A stretch of DNA of 39,974 nucleotides, from the IMG/VR virus record IMGVR_UViG_3300042868_005188, positions 1 to 39,974 of that record, one strand, 5' to 3'. Below are positions 1,393-39,239 of the stretch, piece by piece. The stretch comes from a virus. The notes beneath the pieces were generated by a model that saw only the letters and a program-made list of their open reading frames with translations, did not search any database and was not told the origin of the DNA. Position 1 is the stretch's first letter, and every line of letters begins with the position of its first letter. The translations under genes were made by a program, and so were the position numbers.

Positions 1393-1586
1393 TGTTTTGT
1401 GGTTTTGCGTCGTGCTTTAACCAGTCGGCTGCGGATCTCTTCCAGATCATCATTCAGCCGCTTATTTTTTAACGACAGTGACACAATCACTTCGCTTTGT
1501 TCCTGCAAACGGTCAAACAAAACCCTGATCCAAATGCCAGTACCGGCCATGTACGCGAACAGGACTACAAAAATCCAGATTTCCAT
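1389..1586 (-). CDS. Single-pass membrane protein with coiled coil
   Basis: 65 residues: an N-terminal hydrophobic segment at about 2-20 (IWIFVVLFAYMAGTGIW) followed by a charged heptad-like helix (LSLKNKRLNDDLEEIRSRLVKARRK). This is a one-TM, coiled-coil-tail architecture with the tail probably cytoplasmic because it is strongly basic. Its place between the annealing protein and a resolvase-like gene is odd for a membrane protein. It could anchor a recombination or replication complex, or be a spanin- or holin-type accessory. Start and stop overlap the neighbours by 1-4 bp. Confidence 0.75.
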   Translation of the reverse strand: MEIWIFVVLFAYMAGTGIWIRVLFDRLQEQSEVIVSLSLKNKRLNDDLEEIRSRLVKARRKTTKQ

Positions 1587-2251
1587 TACTCATCTCCTTG
1601 TGGTTGTTCTTTTTCTTTGAGTTCTTGAACCATGATTTTGAACATGGCAAGCAACGTGTCACGGTCAGCAACCGTTGCTTTACCCAGGTTCACTTTCGCT
1701 CGTTTCGCCACCGTCATCGGGTTCAACCCGGCTTTAGTGCAAGCTTTCGCAAACTCGTCTTTGCGTTCATCGGACAACGGCACCACAGTGGGGTCATCCA
1801 TCACTGGTGCTGACACACCTTTGCTTGGGTTACCAGGTTGGTGTTGGGCCGCTGCATTGTTTTCGTCCCATTCCTGTTTCGACCACAACTTCAACGCAAT
1901 TCCGAATCTCATCGCAGCGTTCCTCAACAGGTCGCCCACCAGTTCCTTGTCCAATTCTTGCTTGTCAGCTCGAACCGATCCGACACCTAAACGTGACTGA
2001 CCCAACAATGTGAGTTCACCCCACATGGTTGCGATACCGTTCTCAACGTGGATTGCGGGCCGCCCGTTATTCCATTCGATAGGAACCCAACGCCAATGAG
2101 GATCAATCTCAATCAGGATTTTGGTGATCTCAGCATGAGATACATAGTCAAGTTGGGCACCACCTTTAGGTAGTTTGCCAACAATACTTGGGTCTGGGAC
2201 CCCGTACTTTTCCAGAACCAGTTTCAGTTTCTCAGTGTTTGCATTATCCAT
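1586..2251 (-). CDS. Rad52/ERF-like single-strand annealing protein
   Basis: A 221-residue protein that I read as a phage single-strand annealing protein of the Rad52/ERF type. Family-like blocks in order are KLPKGGAQLDYVSHAEITKIL (split here as KLPKGG and YVSHAEITKIL, about residues 25-46), a DPHWRW strand, GELTLLGQSRLGVGS (about 78-92), and ELVGDLLRNAAMRFGIALKLW (LLRNAAMRFGIAL, about 108-120), which matches the conserved 'LRNAAMRFG' helix. The C-terminal third is a linker and a helical tail. It would anneal complementary ssDNA exposed by the exonuclease encoded immediately upstream (1-bp TAATG overlap). The family is confident; the exact subfamily is not. Confidence 0.85.
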   Translation of the reverse strand: MDNANTEKLKLVLEKYGVPDPSIVGKLPKGGAQLDYVSHAEITKILIEIDPHWRWVPIEWNNGRPAIHVENGIATMWGELTLLGQSRLGVGSVRADKQELDKELVGDLLRNAAMRFGIALKLWSKQEWDENNAAAQHQPGNPSKGVSAPVMDDPTVVPLSDERKDEFAKACTKAGLNPMTVAKRAKVNLGKATVADRDTLLAMFKIMVQELKEKEQPQGDE

Positions 2252-3192
2252 TAGTCGTTTCCTTTCAAACGCAAGGTGCGGATAGTTACTTCTTTGGTGT
2301 ATTGATCCACCAAATCAGGGTGTGCTTCACGCAACGCTTTCTGATCCAACGATTTGCGGGTGCTGGTTTTCCATGTGGCAACCACTTCGCCACCAACCAA
2401 CGCTGTTGCCGCTTCACCAATCATTTCGCACAACTCCGCTTTCAAACGGTCATCAATGTCCTCATACGATTTGCGTTCAGTACGAACATGTTTCAGTTGG
2501 CTAACCAGTTCAGCTGCACGTACCCCAAGTTCCACAAACTGTTGGGTGTCATGCGGGTAACGGTCAGTGATTGTTTCGTAGGTCCACGCAACCCCATCGG
2601 GGGTCATGCCCATGTCAATGTAAGACAACCAGCGGGCCACCGCACGGATGTGGGTTTCTTTCTCGTCAGATGACACGATTTGTTCATGGATGTGCAGTGA
2701 TTGGCTGCGATCAAAAACCGCCCAAAACACCCGGTCTGAGTTGGCGCACACCGCCTGGTGGACACCTTGTAGCAACCAGTAGTCCGGTAACACTCCGGTC
2801 CAGTCACGTGTGGATGTTTTGATTTCCAGAATGTCACCGTTTTCGTACCCGTCCAGGGTGGCAATCATTCGAGCGTCACCATCGGTGAACATGTGCAGCA
2901 CGTCTGGGGTGACAAAGTTGCGACCCAACTTGTCGTTAGCCCACTCAATCAGCACTGGTTCGAGGCGGTTTCCTCGTTCCATCGCTTCGGTTTGTTCTGT
3001 TGGTTCAGGTGGTGTGTCGCGCAACAATTCAGCTGCAAACTGTGCCGCTGATTTGAACGGGTGCTTGTCATAAATGCAAGCTGCCACTGATGCTGACACC
3101 AGTTTTTCGCCTCGGTTGTTAGCCCATCTTTGAGCTAACCATGCCTGTGAACCATGTGGTTCTTTGGCGAGTTGTGACCATTCCCTAGTCAT
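2251..3192 (-). CDS. YqaJ/lambda-exonuclease-like viral recombinase
   Basis: A 313-residue nuclease of the YqaJ/lambda Exo branch of the PD-(D/E)XK superfamily. Visible motifs are: an N-terminal GSQAWLAQRW block (typical 'G...W...R' start), RGNRLEPV with E78, ATLDGY with D114, and LEIKTS with E123 and K125; the last two are the metal-binding core. It would resect one strand of a DNA end for the annealing protein encoded next. The C-terminal 120 residues are helical, with a beta-rich end (VVATWKTSTRKSLDQKALR). The strong SD (AAAGGAAGGG) and the promoter just upstream make this the first gene of the recombination operon. Confidence 0.9.
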   Translation of the reverse strand: MTREWSQLAKEPHGSQAWLAQRWANNRGEKLVSASVAACIYDKHPFKSAAQFAAELLRDTPPEPTEQTEAMERGNRLEPVLIEWANDKLGRNFVTPDVLHMFTDGDARMIATLDGYENGDILEIKTSTRDWTGVLPDYWLLQGVHQAVCANSDRVFWAVFDRSQSLHIHEQIVSSDEKETHIRAVARWLSYIDMGMTPDGVAWTYETITDRYPHDTQQFVELGVRAAELVSQLKHVRTERKSYEDIDDRLKAELCEMIGEAATALVGGEVVATWKTSTRKSLDQKALREAHPDLVDQYTKEVTIRTLRLKGND

Positions 3193-6110: not shown

Positions 6111-7175
6111 CTACTTTCTACGAATTGACAGCCCTGCCGACGCAATAGAAGCCGCAGCAACCGCCACCAAAGCCCTCCGCTGACCCACCGGCACCTTCGA
6201 CCCGGTGGGGACATAGTTATCAAACTTGCCTGAAAACACATTCACCTCAGACTCAAACTGCTTTTTGATTTCTGTTGGCGCATCCGACAAAGCCTCAGCC
6301 AACTGTGTCAACTCGGTGTCTGATAGTTCTTCCAGTTGCCCAACGATCTGTTCCAACTGCTCAACTGTTGCCGGTGCCTCGATCACTGTGGTGGTGGTCA
6401 CCGGGACCGTGGTGGTAGTCGTGGTCGTGGTAGTCGTGGTCGTGGTAGTCGTGGTAGTGCTGGTACTTGTGGTGGTTGTTCTTGGCACAGTTGTCGTAGT
6501 CTGAACCAATGGCTCAGTGGTTGTGGTCAATACCGGCATTTCTGTTGTGGTTGTGGGCAGCTCGACAGTTGTTGAAGTAGATGTTGTTGATGGCTGAACT
6601 GTGGTGGAAGGTACGGCAACGGTTGTCGTTGTTGTATCTGGAACACTGGTGGAAACTTGAACGGCTGTGGTGGTCGTCAACAACACGGGTTCCGTGGTTG
6701 TCGTCACGTCAACAAAAGTTGTTGAAGGCTCAACTGTCGTGGTGGTGGTTTCGGGTGTGGTCGTGGTGGGTTGTTCAACTGTTGTCGTTGTCGTTGTGGT
6801 GGGAACAACTGCCACACCGGTGGTTGACACATCGTATTGAACGCCGTTATACCAACGATTTGGGTCGCCGCAACAAACACCTGCCCTAAGACGAAACCAG
6901 CCTGCTGGTACTTGAATCTCGAGTTGCGATTGCAAACCGAACCAGTCGTCGTTTGCTGCAAGCAAAACACCTTCCTGGTTGTACAGCCACAGCATCGGAT
7001 CCGAAAATGATCCTTGCACGTCAAACGTGCGGGCGTAAAAAACGGTTGGTTCCGAATAGTAAAACCACAGATCCGTGGGTTCTGTTATCCGAAGATTGTC
7101 AGCTTTTGCTGTACTTGGTATCAGTAAAGCAAACGGTAAAAGAAGAAGTAGGCGACTAAGCTTCCGGGGTGTCAA
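6111..7175 (-). CDS. Secreted Thr-rich mucin-like protein with C-terminal TM
   Basis: I place the start at TTG 7173-7175. This gives a textbook signal peptide (MTPRKLSRLLLLLPFALLIP, cleavage near AKA-DN), preceded by GAGG. The longer ATG reading from 7259 overlaps the holin-like gene by 104 bp. After the signal comes a ~95-residue beta-type domain (LRITEPTDLWFYYSEPTVF, ANDDWFGLQSQLEI, AGVCCGDPNRW). About 140 residues dominated by Thr with V/P/E follow, then a helical segment (VEQLEQIVGQLEELSDTELT), and finally a hydrophobic stretch and RRK (ALVAVAAASIASAGLSIRRK). The design is an exported domain on a stalk, anchored in the membrane. It may alter the infected cell surface (superinfection exclusion) or be virion-associated. 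Thr stretches of this type are frequent in Acidimicrobiia surface proteins. Confidence 0.78.
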   Translation of the reverse strand: MTPRKLSRLLLLLPFALLIPSTAKADNLRITEPTDLWFYYSEPTVFYARTFDVQGSFSDPMLWLYNQEGVLLAANDDWFGLQSQLEIQVPAGWFRLRAGVCCGDPNRWYNGVQYDVSTTGVAVVPTTTTTTTVEQPTTTTPETTTTTVEPSTTFVDVTTTTEPVLLTTTTAVQVSTSVPDTTTTTVAVPSTTVQPSTTSTSTTVELPTTTTEMPVLTTTTEPLVQTTTTVPRTTTTSTSTTTTTTTTTTTTTTTTTVPVTTTTVIEAPATVEQLEQIVGQLEELSDTELTQLAEALSDAPTEIKKQFESEVNVFSGKFDNYVPTGSKVPVGQRRALVAVAAASIASAGLSIRRK

Positions 7176-7479
7176 CTGGCGCAGCCTCAACTGTGCCCTT
7201 CGACTCGTTGTATGCGGCTCGGGTTTCTGACTTGACCCCAAACGCTTCGTCCACCTCATCAGCGGTCAACTTGCCATCAAGCGATGCCTGCGCCAACTTG
7301 GTAAGAACGTTCGCTACAGCGGTGAAACCGGCTAGTGCTGCTGCGTACCACAACGGCATCTGCTGCTCAGGGTTGATGGCGTTGATAACCGAGGAACCAG
7401 TGATGATGCCGAGCGATGACACCAGGAACAGGGCGATCATGCGGCCCATAATGTCTTTGGCAACTTTAATACTCATCAT
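7156..7479 (-). CDS. Holin-like membrane protein
   Basis: 107 residues with two hydrophobic helices, about 11-33 (GRMIALFLVSSLGIITGSSV) and 43-60 (PLWYAAALAGFTAVANVL), followed by LTKLAQASLDGKLTADEVDEAF and an acidic tail (about 60-107). The layout 'two TM then K-L..DGKLTADE.D.AFG' is common in actinophage proteins annotated as holins. It sits just after the tail-fibre genes at the head of the lysis block. Its 3' end overlaps the Thr-rich gene start by 20 bp. The start could be at either of two adjacent ATGs. Confidence 0.78.
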   Translation of the reverse strand: MMSIKVAKDIMGRMIALFLVSSLGIITGSSVINAINPEQQMPLWYAAALAGFTAVANVLTKLAQASLDGKLTADEVDEAFGVKSETRAAYNESKGTVEAAPVDTPEA

Positions 7480-15169: not shown

Positions 15170-15510
15170 CAGGCGGTCTGCCTCTCCCAACCAGTCGCAC
15201 AAACCGTCACCTTGTCAGCCGTATCCGACGCACCACGCAACGTGTCACCAGACTCAAACACCAACGCCGTATCCAACACAACCGTGTCATTCGCCGCAAT
15301 CGGCAAACGGTACACAAAACAATTCACCGCAGAAGCCGTAGTACCGTCATACGCCAACGTCACCCAACGCTCAGTTGAATCGGTGTTGCACACAATGATT
15401 TGCTTGATCGCCCACTGATAGTTCGTTGTCACCGTGAAAACAGTGGTGTCAGAAGTGCCGAGAAACGTGGGTGCTTTCAGCATCTTCGGGAAAACGTCAT
15501 TAACAGCCAT
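15169..15510 (-). CDS. Small beta-rich tail accessory protein
   Basis: 113 residues, mostly predicted beta strands (TTVFTVTTNYQWAIKQIIVC, RWVTLAYDGTTASAVNCFVY, DTVVLDTALVFESGDTLRG). The fold resembles a small jelly-roll or Ig-like module. Very short overlaps join it to the collagen-like fibre gene and to fibre copy 1. It could cap or anchor the fibre. I recognise no named family. Confidence 0.75.
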   Translation of the reverse strand: MAVNDVFPKMLKAPTFLGTSDTTVFTVTTNYQWAIKQIIVCNTDSTERWVTLAYDGTTASAVNCFVYRLPIAANDTVVLDTALVFESGDTLRGASDTADKVTVCATGWERQTA

Positions 15511-16598
15511 TACGGGTTCACTTCCATTATTAATATCATCTTGATATTACGACCTTCTTGAACGGATGTGCCTGCTTCCGCAGTTGGTTTCCACGCCAAA
15601 CCAGTCGGTTCGTTGGAATCAGCGGTCAACACATAGTCATCTGTGCCAACTTCAAGACGAGCCAAATCGTTGTTGACGTTGCGGGTCAACAAGTCGCCTG
15701 TGGCTGTCAAAACAGATGAGCCACCCTCAGCACCTTGTGGTCCTTGCGCACCCTGCGCACCCTGAGGTCCTGTTGCGCCTTGCGGTCCTGTCGCACCTTG
15801 TGGTCCTTGCGCACCCTGAGCACCAGTCGCACCTTGTGGTCCTTGCGGGCCGATGTCGCCCTGCGGTCCTTGCGGACCTGTGGCACCTTGTGCGCCTTGT
15901 GGACCGGTAGCACCCTGAGGACCAACATCACCCTGGGGACCCTGAGGACCCTGGGCACCGGTAGCACCCTGTGCGCCTTGTGGTCCCTGAGGTCCAATAT
16001 CACCTTGCGGTCCCTGCGCCCCCTGTGTACCCTGTGGTCCCTGTGAACCCTGAGCACCAGTTGCCCCCTGTGGGCCTACATCACCTTGTGGTCCCTGTGC
16101 GCCAGTCGCACCCTGAGCACCTTGAGGCCCGACAGAACCTTGCGAACCTTGTGGCCCAATGTTCCCCTGAGGACCCTGTGAACCTTGAACACCCTGCGGT
16201 CCCTGCGCACCAGTTGCGCCTTGCGCACCGGTTGCACCCTGCGCACCGGTTGCCCCCTGCGGGCCTTGACTTCCTTGAACGCCTTGCGGACCTTGTGACC
16301 CCTGCGCACCTTGTGCGCCGGTGGCCCCCTGAGCACCCGTTGCACCTTGCACCCCTTGCGGTCCTTGTGATCCTTGCGGGCCTTGTGAGCCTTGCGACCC
16401 TGTAGCACCTTGTGCGCCTTGCGCACCAACAGGACCAGCTGACGACGATCCAATCAAAACAATTTCAGAACCAACAATTTGCGATGACACCACAGCTGTG
16501 GTCAACGCACCAACTGTTTGATCTGCACGTGTAACCGTAATCAGGTACGCAACAAGATCATTCGTCCCACGGTTGATCGTTACGTTTAAGGTAGCCAC
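15510..16598 (-). CDS. Collagen-like Gly-X-Y tail fibre
   Basis: 362 residues: an N-terminal attachment domain (about 1-55; [20 protein letters not shown]), a long uninterrupted collagen-like stretch of about 230 residues ([19 protein letters not shown] style triplets rich in Q, A, P, T, S), and a C-terminal domain ([40 protein letters not shown]). The triplets should form a triple-helical stalk, giving a trimeric fibre. The DNA between about 15.72 and 16.43 kb is itself repetitive and prone to length change by recombination. The opposite strand is also open there because of the repeat; those readings are shadows. Confidence 0.9.
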
Positions 16599-18440: not shown

Positions 18441-18456
18441 GGTTAAAGTGTAGGTG

Positions 18457-19200
18457 ATGGGGTTGCTCAGTATCTACATCCCAACATGGAACCGCCCCCA
18501 TTTGCTTGACCGCCTGTTCGCCAGCATTGAACCCCAAATGTGCGACGAAGTGGACGTGTTCGTATCCGTGAACAAAAGCGACAAACCGTACAACATCCCA
18601 TCTTGGGTGAAACATCGTGAACTTCGACGCAACATTGGAGGCGACCCAAACATCTGTGTCGGACCAACCCTTGTCAACGGCACCTACTGTTGGGTTATTG
18701 GCGACGACGAGCAGATGTTGCCAGGTGCCATTGAAAGCACATTGCAGGCGTGCCGTGACGGGGCTGGTCTAATTCTGCAACCTTCAGCGAAACACAACAT
18801 TGGGGTGCCGTTAGGTTCAACATACCCAACATACGCAGCGTTTTGCGATGCACTGATCGGGGCAAACGCCGGTTGGGTTATAGCTGCCCACACCTTGATT
18901 TCAGCGACCACGTTCCAGCGTGACGCATACGATGTTGCTTTAGCGTTACAGAAAATGGACACTATGTACGGGTTTCATTACGGGATGCTTGCAAACCTGA
19001 TGTTCAAACCGATTCATGTTTTGCCACAACCAACAATGCTGTACGGGCGTGAAGCCTCAGTGTTCCTGCACTCCAAAGAAATTGTGGACGAACATATGTC
19101 CGCATACCCGAAAGTGATCCATGACATTTTTGATTGGGTCGGCGCAGTTACCGGCTACCTCATCCCCCATGATGAGTTCAAACGAGGGTTTGATACCTAA
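18457..19200 (+). CDS. GT2-like glycosyltransferase, lone plus-strand gene
   Basis: 247 residues (ATG 18457; a GTG one codon earlier is possible). LLSIYIPTWNRPHLLDRLFA is the GT-A start; VFVSVNKSDKPYNIPSW and RNIGGDPNICVGPTLVNG follow; CWVIGDDEQMLPGAIESTL gives the DDE metal-binding motif near residue 85. NAGWVIAAHTLISATTFQRD and MYGFHYGMLANLMF form the C-terminal part. The catalytic elements seem present. It is the only gene I am confident lies on the plus strand. Its 5' end is 16 bp from a divergent gene and its stop shares four bases with a convergent gene, so there is no room for its own promoter or terminator outside coding sequence. It looks like an insertion (moron). Confidence 0.82.
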   Translation: MGLLSIYIPTWNRPHLLDRLFASIEPQMCDEVDVFVSVNKSDKPYNIPSWVKHRELRRNIGGDPNICVGPTLVNGTYCWVIGDDEQMLPGAIESTLQACRDGAGLILQPSAKHNIGVPLGSTYPTYAAFCDALIGANAGWVIAAHTLISATTFQRDAYDVALALQKMDTMYGFHYGMLANLMFKPIHVLPQPTMLYGREASVFLHSKEIVDEHMSAYPKVIHDIFDWVGAVTGYLIPHDEFKRGFDT

Positions 19201-33967: not shown

Positions 33968-34702
33968 TCACTGTCTCACTGGCATGAGTAGAACGGTTAG
34001 CTTGTGTTCGGTGCCGGTGATGCTCATGATTGCGGGTTTGTTGGGTTGTAGGTGCTCGATGAGTAGCGGTAGCTCGGTTTTGGTGCCGAATAGGTGCCGG
34101 GCTGCTTTGTGCGGGTTGGTGAGTTTTTCGGAGTTGAGTGCTACCGGTCCGGCGTGTTCGCGGGTTGTGGGGAATAGTGGTTTCCATTGTGGGAACTCGG
34201 CCCGGATTAGTGCCTCGTTTCCGGTGGTGGTGGTGCCGTTCATGTGAGTGAGTGCCCATTTTCCGGACTCGGTGTTTATGGTCAGTGTGCTGCTGGCTTG
34301 GTTTTGTTTGGGGTCTTGTTTGGCTGCTGCGGTGAGTGCGGGCAGGATCTCGGCGAGGTTCAGTGTTACCGGTTCGGTGACGTTGTGCTCGACTGCGGTG
34401 GTGGTGATTTGGGCTAGCTGGTATGCGTCAGTGGCCACAATGTCGAGGGTGCCGGGTTCTGTTCCTGGTTGGATTTGTGCGCCGGTTAGGTGGTATTTAG
34501 TTTTCTCAGTGGTTGCGTACACTTTGGCGGCGTTTAGGATTGCGGCCAGGGTGCCGGCTGTGGCTGTCAGTGTGATTTGTGCCGGGTTGGTTGGTGCCGG
34601 TTGTGGTTCGCAATCGTGGCCGTAGTGCCATTCTTCGGCCTGGGTTTCGTCGAGTAGGTCGAAGATCCGGTTGCACTCCGGGCATTTTGTGGTGGTGTTC
34701 AT
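33968..34702 (-). CDS. DnaN-like sliding clamp with N-terminal zinc ribbon
   Basis: 244 residues. Residues 7-31 hold CPEC...HDC (CPECNRIFDLL, YGHDCEPQ), a zinc-ribbon-like addition. The rest resembles a bacterial beta clamp: AGTLAAILNAAKVYATTEKT, PGTLDIVATDAYQLAQITTT (the conserved 'ATDxxxLA' strand), VTLNLAEILPALTAAAKQDP, ALIRAEFPQWKPLFPTTREH (clamp-like 'FP.......P' turn), and a C-terminus TVLLMPVRQ matching the clamp 'xMPxRL' end. At about 200 clamp residues it is shorter than bacterial DnaN (about 370), so one of three domains is probably missing. No phage polymerase is present; it may recruit or divert host DNA polymerase or other clamp clients. Upstream ATGA overlap. Confidence 0.78.
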   Translation of the reverse strand: MNTTTKCPECNRIFDLLDETQAEEWHYGHDCEPQPAPTNPAQITLTATAGTLAAILNAAKVYATTEKTKYHLTGAQIQPGTEPGTLDIVATDAYQLAQITTTAVEHNVTEPVTLNLAEILPALTAAAKQDPKQNQASSTLTINTESGKWALTHMNGTTTTGNEALIRAEFPQWKPLFPTTREHAGPVALNSEKLTNPHKAARHLFGTKTELPLLIEHLQPNKPAIMSITGTEHKLTVLLMPVRQ

Positions 34703-34893
34703 TGGTTGGGTCCCTTCTGGTGGTTGGTTGGTTTCGTGCCGGTGTTGGCTCGATCTGTGTGGTGTCGCCGGGTGTGGCGGTTGGGTGTGCGTGGGTGGGC
34801 GGCCAGGATCGCGGTGAGTATCCCGGCAGCTAGTAGTGATCCGATTATGGCCGCGAGTTGGGTTAGGTGTTCGGTGTGGGTGTAGGTGTTCAT
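34699..34893 (-). CDS. 64-aa single-TM protein
   Basis: ATG 34891-34893 overlaps the previous stop (ATGA) and its stop overlaps the clamp ATG the same way. MNTYTHTEHLTQLAAIIGSL continues LAAGILTAILAAH, one TM helix of about 20 residues. A basic, His/Arg/Thr-rich cytoplasmic tail follows (PRTPNRHTRRHHTDRANTG). The longer frame to 35082 is a shadow. Function unknown; a membrane anchor for the replication-type genes around it is possible. Confidence 0.65.
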   Translation of the reverse strand: MNTYTHTEHLTQLAAIIGSLLAAGILTAILAAHPRTPNRHTRRHHTDRANTGTKPTNHQKGPNQ

Positions 34894-35069
34894 GGTTGTG
34901 GCCTGTCTAGTTTTTGTGCGCACACTGTCGAGCAAGCTGTCCATGTTTCGGCGGGTCCGTCGGTGTGGATTATGTCGCCAATAGTTAGCGGTTGGCCGCA
35001 TTGTTGGCAGCTGGTTTCTTCTGTCATGTGGGTGACAAGGTAGCGGGGGTATTTGGTGCGGGTGTTCAT
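34890..35069 (-). CDS. Zinc-finger small protein (59 aa)
   Basis: ATG 35067-35069 follows the previous stop by 2 bp. The sequence has CQQC at residues 21-24 and C...C further on (ETWTACSTVCAQKL), a four-Cys site with GQPLTIGDIIHTDGP between. The pattern is that of a small treble-clef or FCS-type zinc finger ('H.DGP..TW..C'). It starts MNT like two neighbouring proteins of the same operon. Probably binds metal; the role is unknown. Confidence 0.7.
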   Translation of the reverse strand: MNTRTKYPRYLVTHMTEETSCQQCGQPLTIGDIIHTDGPAETWTACSTVCAQKLDRPQP

Positions 35070-35071
35070 GG

Positions 35072-35194
35072 TTATCGGCCACACTTTGCGCATGGGATCC
35101 TATGGGCGGGGTCGAGTTCGTGCCAGTCGGCGTTGTCGGCCCATGTGGTGAGATCGTCGGCGCAATCGGGGCACGTGAAATGGTCCGGGTTCAT
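35072..35194 (-). CDS. Zinc-ribbon micro-protein (40 aa)
   Basis: 40 residues from ATG 35192-35194, whose first bases overlap the previous stop (ATGA). CPDC (8-11) and CAKC (36-39) are separated by DDLTTWADNADWHELDPAHR, giving a two-knuckle zinc ribbon with the second knuckle at the very C-terminus (CGR-type end). Other frames across this stretch are Arg-rich shadows. One of a series of tiny metal-binding proteins in this phage. Confidence 0.7.
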   Translation of the reverse strand: MNPDHFTCPDCADDLTTWADNADWHELDPAHRIPCAKCGR

Positions 35195-35808
35195 TGTGCG
35201 GCCACTTTGTTGAGTAGTGCGAGCGCGGCGGCTGCCTGGGGTTGCCAGTAGATTTGTGAGATCTTGTGATCTTCGAGAGTGGCGGTCCAGGCCTGGGTTG
35301 CTGTGGTTATGTCGTCGTAGGCTTCGGCGTTGTCTCCGTAGAAATTGTGCACCCAATGCATGAGATCGGCGGCCACGTCTCGCGGCACGTGTAAGTGTCG
35401 GGTGAGTTTGTCGAGATCGGCGGCCACGTATTTGGTGAGTCCGGACCAGTAGGCCGCATTTGCGGCGGCGTGCATGGGTTCGCCGGTGTCATCAGATAGG
35501 TGGATTTCGACCAGGGGCGCGAGCTGTGGCCAGTAGTGCAGGATTGTTTCGTGGATCGCGCCGCCGGTAATGGTGCCATCTCTACCGGCGCGGCGGCTGC
35601 GTGGGTTGAACACTTCGCCAGTGATCGAGAAATAAGGCCGGGGATTGGCGTGTCGGTGTATGAGTTGGGCGCGAGCTTGCACCCGGACGGGTAGCACGTT
35701 ACCGGATCGGGATACGTGCCAGGGTTGGCCGTTGGGGTCGAGTGTGCTGGATTTAGTCCATTGGTTAGCGGCCAGTAGGGTTTCGGTGTGGGTAGCTGTG
35801 TAATGCAT
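35191..35808 (-). CDS. 205-aa protein of unknown function, first gene of GC-rich operon
   Basis: MHYTATHTETLLAANQWTKS opens the protein; PVRVQARAQLIHRHANPRPY and FSITGEVFNPRSRRAGRDGT give a basic middle; HETILHYWPQLAPLVEIHLS, LTKYVAADLDKLTRHLHVPR and DLMHWVHNFYGDNAEAYDDI form a helical C-terminal half. I recognise no family. The ATG lies 6 nt from a -10 box with no SD, so translation is likely leaderless. Codons are GC-richer than in the structural genes. Being first in an operon with a sliding clamp suggests a DNA-related role, but no motif supports it. Confidence 0.75.
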   Translation of the reverse strand: MHYTATHTETLLAANQWTKSSTLDPNGQPWHVSRSGNVLPVRVQARAQLIHRHANPRPYFSITGEVFNPRSRRAGRDGTITGGAIHETILHYWPQLAPLVEIHLSDDTGEPMHAAANAAYWSGLTKYVAADLDKLTRHLHVPRDVAADLMHWVHNFYGDNAEAYDDITTATQAWTATLEDHKISQIYWQPQAAAALALLNKVAAQ

Positions 35809-38270: not shown

Positions 38271-38431
38271 TTCTTTTTTCTTCCCTTCTTTGGTTCTGGT
38301 TCTTGTTTCCGGTGGCACCAGCATTGGCAGTGGGCCACATCTTCTTTGGTTCTTTTCTGCAACAGATCTGAAACTGTCCAGCAGTGGTCGCAGAACCCTG
38401 GCGACCCATCGTATGTGTCAGGACGAGACAT
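38267..38431 (-). CDS. Cys/His-rich zinc-finger micro-protein (54 aa)
   Basis: A 54-codon ORF filling the gap between the MazG-like and whiB genes. ATG 38429-38431 overlaps the upstream stop by 14 bp and its TGA overlaps the WhiB ATG as ATGA. CDHC at residues 14-17 and HCQCWCH at 34-40 give an unusually dense set of metal ligands. A Lys-rich tail follows (RKQEPEPKKGRKKK). The tight packing strongly supports coding. It may bind nucleic acid through the basic tail. Its link to the WhiB genes is noteworthy. Confidence 0.75.
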   Translation of the reverse strand: MSRPDTYDGSPGFCDHCWTVSDLLQKRTKEDVAHCQCWCHRKQEPEPKKGRKKK

Positions 38432-38705
38432 GTGCCATGTTCATGCAACCGAGATACCCGATTGCGTCCACCAACGAGTCGTGGTGCCATGTTCCACGTT
38501 CACGTGCTGTGCGTAACCGTGCCATCTTGACAGCCACCATGAAACACAACGCTTCCTGCACGGTCAACTCAACACCGGTCAACCCGTAGAAAATGTCAAC
38601 TACTTTGCTGTAATCCTCAACAGGGTGAGCGTATTGGTTTTGTCGCGGCCCTGTGATCAGCTCATGTGCTTCATGCAGGATCTCCGCACCCTTCGAAACA
38701 CTCAT
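38418..38705 (-). CDS. DUF6378 / MazG-like protein
   Basis: 95 residues. EILHEAHELITGPRQNQYAH and DYSKVVDIFYGLTGVELTVQ are followed by EALCFMVAVKMARLR and HDSLVDAIGYLGCM. The 'R...Y..P..D......F....G..L...D.......K.AR......DSLVD..GY' pattern matches DUF6378, a phage family with the all-alpha NTP-pyrophosphatase (MazG-like) layout. If active it would hydrolyse nucleotides or clean the pool; E/D ligands are partly present (E51, D76 area). It sits between SSB and a zinc-finger gene. Activity is uncertain. Confidence 0.78.
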   Translation of the reverse strand: MSVSKGAEILHEAHELITGPRQNQYAHPVEDYSKVVDIFYGLTGVELTVQEALCFMVAVKMARLRTARERGTWHHDSLVDAIGYLGCMNMAHVSS

Positions 38706-38706
38706 G

Positions 38707-39108
38707 TCAGAACGGTTCTTCGTCTGTCAGTTTTGCTTGCGGGAACGCTTTACCGATTTGGGCTACCACTTGTTCGCTGCGATCCAAGAGGGCAACATCC
38801 CAACGAACAGACAGGCCACCGTCATCAGCGATCAACTGAAACTTGGAACCTTTCTTACCGTCTTTGGTTTCCCATTCCTTCTTTTCCATGCGACCCACAA
38901 TGATCACACGGTTACCTTTTTGGAATGAGGCCGCAAAGTTTTCGGCCAGTTTGTCAAACGCGACAACATCAAACCATGTGGTTTTCTTATCGTTTTGGGT
39001 TTTGCGGGTCACCCCAACAGACACCTCGATGGTGGCAAGGCCGTTGTTGGTGTAACGCAACTCTGGTTGTTGACCCACGTTGCCTGTGATTGTGATTTGG
39101 TTACTCAT
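38707..39108 (-). CDS. ssb: Single-stranded DNA-binding protein
   Basis: 133 residues from ATG 39106-39108, which overlaps the upstream micro-protein stop (ATGA) and has AGAAGGGAAC as SD. The OB fold reads ITITGNVGQQPELRYTNNGL, ATIEVSVGVTRKTQN, TTWFDVVAFDKLAENFAASF, QKGNRVIIVGRMEKKEW and FQLIADDGGLSVRWDVAL. The C-terminus LTDEEPF matches the acidic SSB tip (D-D-x-P-F type) that recruits partner proteins. It protects ssDNA from the phage exonuclease and supports replication and annealing. Confidence 0.93.
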   Translation of the reverse strand: MSNQITITGNVGQQPELRYTNNGLATIEVSVGVTRKTQNDKKTTWFDVVAFDKLAENFAASFQKGNRVIIVGRMEKKEWETKDGKKGSKFQLIADDGGLSVRWDVALLDRSEQVVAQIGKAFPQAKLTDEEPF

Positions 39109-39239
39109 TTTGTTCCCTTCTGGGTTAGTGGTGTTGTTCGCTGCCCTTGTTTCGGGCAGCTGTGTGTTGGTGGATAGGTCAATGTGATCAGTGTTTCGAT
39201 TTTTGCGCCGCAGTAACGGCACTCCCACTTCTGTTTCAC
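39105..39239 (-). CDS. Zinc-binding micro-protein (44 aa)
   Basis: A 44-codon ORF with GTG start 39237-39239 overlapping the upstream stop (GTGA) and a TGA overlapping the ssb ATG (ATGA). Residues 5-10 are WECRYC, then GAKIETLITLTYPPTHSCPK with a third cysteine. This 'W.C..CG......V...PP...C' layout resembles small Cys-rich proteins found in many mycobacteriophage-type genomes. Double 4-bp overlaps make coding very likely. Role unknown. Confidence 0.78.
   Translation of the reverse strand: MKQKWECRYCGAKIETLITLTYPPTHSCPKQGQRTTPLTQKGTK

Follow-up and report, generated by a model that had tools for sequence, protein, structure and literature searches.

A phage-encoded relative of the bacterial sliding clamp that keeps the client-binding groove and lacks the canonical ring interface

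We analysed a stretch of viral DNA of 39,974 nucleotides (IMG/VR record IMGVR_UViG_3300042868_005188), referred to here as the window, and in particular the gene for a protein that begins with ATG and that we call the half-clamp for reasons given below. The ends of the record carry a 137-bp direct repeat of 99% identity, so that it represents an essentially complete genome of about 39.84 kb closing on itself. Besides the single-stranded DNA-binding protein (SSB) and the recombination genes of Table 1, Pfam and PHROGs searches identify a terminase, a portal, a capsid protein and a second exonuclease/phosphoesterase, and the presence of a WhiB gene suggests an actinobacterial host.

Table 1. Features of the half-clamp gene and its genomic context, in window positions
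Feature	Position	Strand	Basis
Half-clamp gene including N-terminal CxxC/HxC motif, 244 aa	33968-34702	-	ORF; DnaN and PHROG profiles; structure model and fold match; relatives
Shine-Dalgarno-like AGAAGGG, 9 nt upstream of the half-clamp ATG	34712-34718	-	Sequence
First 35 aa, containing C7-x2-C10...H29-x-C31, which may form a zinc-binding mini-domain	34598-34702	-	Likeness to a 31-aa protein of ct2KA10; low pLDDT
Complete DnaN domain II (aa 40-165), made of two beta-alpha-beta3 modules and contributing ATDAYQL to the cleft	34208-34585	-	Model, fold match, alignment
Linker (aa 166-185) containing EFPQWKPLFP; P171 lies in the cleft and corresponds to E. coli P242	34148-34207	-	Alignment
Second of the two DnaN domain III modules (aa 186-244), with LMPVRQ at its end; cleft residues M240, P241, R243	33971-34147	-	Model, alignment
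SSB (context)	38707-39228	-	PF00436, 2.7e-26; PHROG 44
Single-strand annealing protein (context)	1586-2251	-	PHROG profiles (PHROG 3290 and 434 for the pair with the exonuclease)
RecE-like exonuclease (context)	2251-3192	-	PHROG profiles (PHROG 3290 and 434 for the pair with the annealing protein)

Several other parts of the genome deserve mention in their own right. Two small minus-strand ORFs adjoining the half-clamp gene (34890-35356) have paired CxxC motifs, in a stretch rich in small proteins with cysteine pairs, and a 95-residue ORF (38418-38705, minus) matches PHROGs named phosphofructokinase, a doubtful label for so short a protein. Among the tail genes lies a protein of 362 residues with long collagen-like GPQGxQG repeats (15510-16598, minus). 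Two ORFs have no PHROGs match: one of 382 residues whose N-terminus resembles a signal sequence and which contains a long stretch rich in threonine, with TTTTTT runs (6111-7259, minus), and one resembling a glycosyltransferase, with a STIYIPTWNRP-type start, on the opposite strand within the late genes (18454-19200, plus).

The half-clamp is recognisable as a relative of DnaN. Single-sequence profile matches are weak but mutually consistent: TIGR00663 (DnaN) matches residues 37-195 with an E-value of 6.1e-9 and PF02767 matches at 1.9e-4, both below the curated cut-offs, and PHROG 3007 and PHROG 947 (processivity factor) match at 1.1e-10 and 1.1e-6. Scanning viral contigs for close relatives with the window protein alone returned none, and no relative was confirmed when genome contigs were scanned with the family alignment; homologues of about 200 residues were collected via terminase relatives in viral contigs. 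When the family profile was compared to the PDB, all 47 of the 47 sequences found at E-values up to 1 were DnaN, at scores below curated cut-offs. An AlphaFold2 model built from 17 sequences (pLDDT 81, pTM 0.77) confidently predicts residues 40-244 as a clamp fold, which aligns with DnaN from about position 123-135 to the C-terminus (about 366) with a best Z-score of 16.6. The model of a distant relative (22% identity with the window protein) is better still (pLDDT 87, pTM 0.85, Z up to 19.2 to DnaN), with 181 residues aligning inside positions 126-366 of E. coli DnaN and about 60 DnaN residues, the size of one module, left unpartnered. The similarity to DnaN is far beyond chance and a homologous clamp domain II is present. 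A beta-clamp fold had been proposed in a preliminary description of the sequence, which suggested comparing a predicted structure with DnaN; the profiles, the PDB matches and the model all bear it out.

Each domain of DnaN consists of two beta-alpha-beta3 modules, and the whole protein of six, whereas both of our models contain three. Aligned to the E. coli sequence, which was checked against 1MMI, the half-clamp has two gaps: the whole of domain I (1-125) and approximately 252-312, corresponding to the first of the two domain III modules, which would be expected directly after the linker. By alignment and model, the protein is thus predicted to be domain II followed immediately by the latter half of domain III with its cleft residues. 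The preliminary description had one domain missing; it was right as to the truncation and fell short in the count, as one and a half domains are gone. The same architecture is found in 13 non-redundant short phage clamps comprising actinophage relatives and proteins from Escherichia phage TheodorHerzl (172 aa), Erwinia phage Gungnir39, Vibrio phage R20L, Pseudomonas phages zjk6 and USP_25, and Caulobacter phage RW, all six of which share the gap. Across the 13, E. coli positions 1-125 have an occupancy of 0.09, positions 126-251 of 0.90, positions 252-312 of 0.09 and positions 313-366 of 0.94. The dimer-interface positions I78, R103, F106, I272, L273, E298 and E304, taken together with the cleft residues from a review of the E. 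coli clamp (PMC11139829), are all missing in 13/13. The full-length phage clamps JaNo and Mae-JY04 have no such gap and keep the interface positions. Since the dimer interface is built from domain I together with the initial half of domain III, the canonical ring would be lost with them.

Two other accounts of the truncation were considered and rejected. A split clamp, with a second gene supplying the missing parts, is contradicted by the Pfam profiles for domains I and III, which find nothing in the five records of actinophages and the six phages with a half-clamp that were scanned and are positive in two full-length controls. A pseudogene remnant is contradicted by the recurrence of one architecture in 13 divergent proteins, and by codon changes suggesting purifying selection, with 33 synonymous versus 28 non-synonymous changes in one pair and 47 versus 29 in another.

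With DnaN of E. coli (1MMI) and M. tuberculosis (6FVN) the half-clamp thus has in common domain II, the client cleft and the second of the two domain III modules (Z about 16). It differs in lacking domain I, the interface residues and the other domain III module, and in having an additional CxxC/HxC motif. The two-domain trimeric clamps PCNA and T4 gp45 are related in fold, with Z up to 14.7 for PCNA. However, a PCNA subunit has four modules and forms a trimer, while the half-clamp has three in both models, short of the two complete domains per subunit of a PCNA/gp45-type clamp, and no sequence tie to PCNA.

What remains of the clamp is conserved selectively. Over the 13 short clamps the invariant residues are L155, T172, P242, M362, P363 and R365 (E. 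coli numbering), all of them in the cleft; outside it, only the start methionine is invariant. In this alignment identity to E. coli amounts to 64% within the cleft and 15% elsewhere, and conservation to 0.59 versus 0.26 (permutation p of about 1e-5, the floor of the permutation). The window protein, in which ATDAYQLA corresponds to residues 90-97, EFPQWKPLFP to 169-178 and LLMPVRQ to the C-terminus, keeps the cleft residues L72, T91, P171, N190, M240, P241 and R243, and differs from E. coli at Y94, Q95, K193 and others. Conservation of the cleft by itself is expected of ordinary clamps too; it is the combination with loss of the interface that is unusual. The groove that in DnaN receives the clamp-binding motifs (QLxLF-like peptides) of polymerases, the clamp loader and repair proteins therefore appears to be kept, and would probably still bind such peptides. 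One further cleft residue, R152, is also seen contacting DNA in E. coli. Its equivalent is arginine or lysine in 12 of the 13 short clamps and may have a role on DNA.

The N-terminal segment is a separate matter. C7, C10, H29 and C31 lie in a region of pLDDT about 46-57 for which AlphaFold2 gives no confident fold. The preliminary description had seen a fused zinc ribbon here; the CPEC...HDC motif is indeed present, but with these scores we speak of a CxxC/HxC motif and not of a proven ribbon. A stand-alone protein of 31 residues from Caudovirales sp. ct2KA10 (OX376640.1, L061:2989-3084), MSKVCRECARSFNLDDSRDAAEWYYGHDCEV, resembles the segment over its full length and has the same four residues, and gene fusion would be the simplest reading. 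The segment was not found in any other short clamp examined; the preliminary description had called the addition unusual.

Half-clamps are widespread in phages. A single half-clamp query retrieved 79 phage records, 63 of them with a match covering at least 80% of the query, of which we read six in detail, and a library of viral structures holds many relatives of 195-215 residues. Among the terminase relatives the occurrence is patchy, with the gene in 11 of 17 records, several of which are fragments. The actinophage relatives have it upstream of the terminase gene, in either orientation and among small genes; these small genes differ between terminase relatives (L013, L014, L015, L017, L018, L019, L027 and others), as if a cassette inverts or is exchanged. 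In TheodorHerzl it resembles an accessory gene: it is found among the late genes in opposite orientation, with spanin genes on one side and capsid genes on the other. As this phage has a family A polymerase and none was found in the window phage, the half-clamp gene would not seem to be tied to a phage replisome.

The window phage itself appears, from its gene content, to depend on the polymerase of its host. Profile searches of the record found no DNA polymerase of families A, B or C and no DnaB-type helicase domain, and the same searches were positive in control genomes. PHROGs scans of 30 ORFs likewise gave no polymerase and no primase, the latter being covered by these scans only. The absence of all three from the phage had been claimed beforehand and agrees with these results. 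The preliminary description had also proposed looking for clamp-binding motifs in the phage's proteins: three patterns found none in the minus-strand ORFs, a weak negative given that about 0.6-1.9 chance matches are expected for the loose patterns. Taken at face value, it would mean that the clients of the half-clamp are host proteins.

The reading we prefer, with a probability of roughly one half, is that the half-clamp is a soluble stand-in for the host clamp which forms no ring and which, in the infected cell, competes for some of the proteins that bind the host clamp or diverts them. It draws on the fold, the truncation, the selective conservation of the cleft, the wide occurrence in phages and the finding of no polymerase in the window phage. 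The groove would bind clamp-binding motifs of host proteins, the protein would be unable to close a canonical ring and presumably would form no ring of any kind, and, made during infection, it would tie up the clamp-loader subunit delta or other clients, with competition as the outcome. Delta is a candidate since the monomeric E. coli beta mutant I272A/L273A is reported to bind it about 50-fold more tightly than the dimer does (PMC11139829). A blanket block of clamp clients would probably hurt a phage that seemingly needs the host polymerase; any interference would need to be restricted to some clients, limited in time or productive for the phage. The retained R152 equivalent, with its possible role on DNA, also counts against this reading. 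The preliminary description had offered capture of the host replisome and a decoy for DnaN clients; both would be compatible with the half-clamp's predicted anatomy. To our knowledge, the phage proteins N4 gp8 and Gp168, which act at the host clamp or clamp loader, are not truncated clamps. If competition is the mechanism, they would share with the half-clamp the host machinery acted upon (N4 gp8 as cited in PMC12817073; the Gp168-clamp complex as in PDB 7EVP). More speculatively, RecBCD and the mismatch nuclease NucS, reported as clamp partners in E. coli (PMC13254535) and in Actinobacteria (PMC8228993), respectively, might be attractive targets for a phage using annealing recombination.

For a phage that seems to depend on the host polymerase, a general block is less to be expected than such a selective effect or a role as adaptor. 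The adaptor is the strongest competing explanation, though we consider it unlikely. The half-clamp would here be no inhibitor: it would hold a host polymerase, ligase or other client and bring it, via its inner face or the zinc-type motif, to the recombination intermediates generated by the annealing protein, exonuclease and SSB of the phage. The window phage does have such a recombination set and an SSB with no polymerase found, the R152 equivalent is kept as arginine or lysine, and in Vibrio phage R20L the half-clamp gene is near an SSB gene. However, the gene does not adjoin recombination genes in the window, in Dhillonvirus or in relatives from actinophages, and tethering without a ring failed in the E. 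coli monomer, which retains DNA binding but does not make Pol III processive (PMC11139829).

A true clamp closing by a new ring seems less probable again. Four three-module subunits could supply the usual twelve modules, and the family shows conservation and signs of purifying selection, but every canonical interface position is missing and, judging from the topology, closure would have to bring two second modules together, a pairing absent from known clamps. Some other, non-canonical oligomer of the half-clamp is possible.

Database names for these proteins are in conflict. Short phage proteins of PHROG 3007 called 'DNA polymerase III beta subunit' share the truncated architecture and invariant cleft of the window half-clamp; those examined lack its N-terminal CxxC/HxC motif, and some, as TheodorHerzl, come from phages with their own polymerase. 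Short clamps match PHROG 3007 across most of its 190 positions and full-length clamps match PHROG 947 end to end. Yet PHROG 3007 and 12598 carry the label 'RusA-like Holliday junction resolvase', which is also found on phage records (e.g. NC_013600.1, NC_016566.1 and NC_054649.1). That the proteins are such resolvases is so improbable that we rejected it: the fold and all PDB profile matches are DnaN, PHROG 3007 picks up a full-length DnaN of a phage too and is positive in 9 of 14 control bacterial genomes, and Pfam finds no RusA family match at E-values up to 0.1 in 17 members. The label thus looks wrong, and appears to be a misannotation of DnaN-like half-clamps that has spread through phage annotation, RefSeq records included. 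In the open-access literature surveyed, phages are annotated with short or full-length beta subunits, such as the 209-residue gp20 of AH2 (PMC3483164), but the missing ring interface is not discussed. We provisionally regard as new the description of a phage family with the docking groove intact and no ring interface, present in databases under conflicting names.

Extended beyond the window, the mimicry reading would be that many unrelated phages carry a dedicated non-ring clamp mimic, hidden under a wrong database name, that steals or re-routes host proteins recruited by the clamp; we hold this wider proposal tentatively, at somewhat less than even odds, and with it the candidate clients clamp-loader delta, repair polymerases and mismatch or recombination nucleases. 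Bacterial sliding clamps are understood as rings, and a phage family with the groove retained and the ring-closing parts discarded suggests that the groove alone is of use to viruses. The family has a member in a laboratory phage of E. coli (TheodorHerzl, Bas14). The half-clamp may be a natural probe for host processes that rely on docking to the clamp, and a lead for inhibitors that target it.
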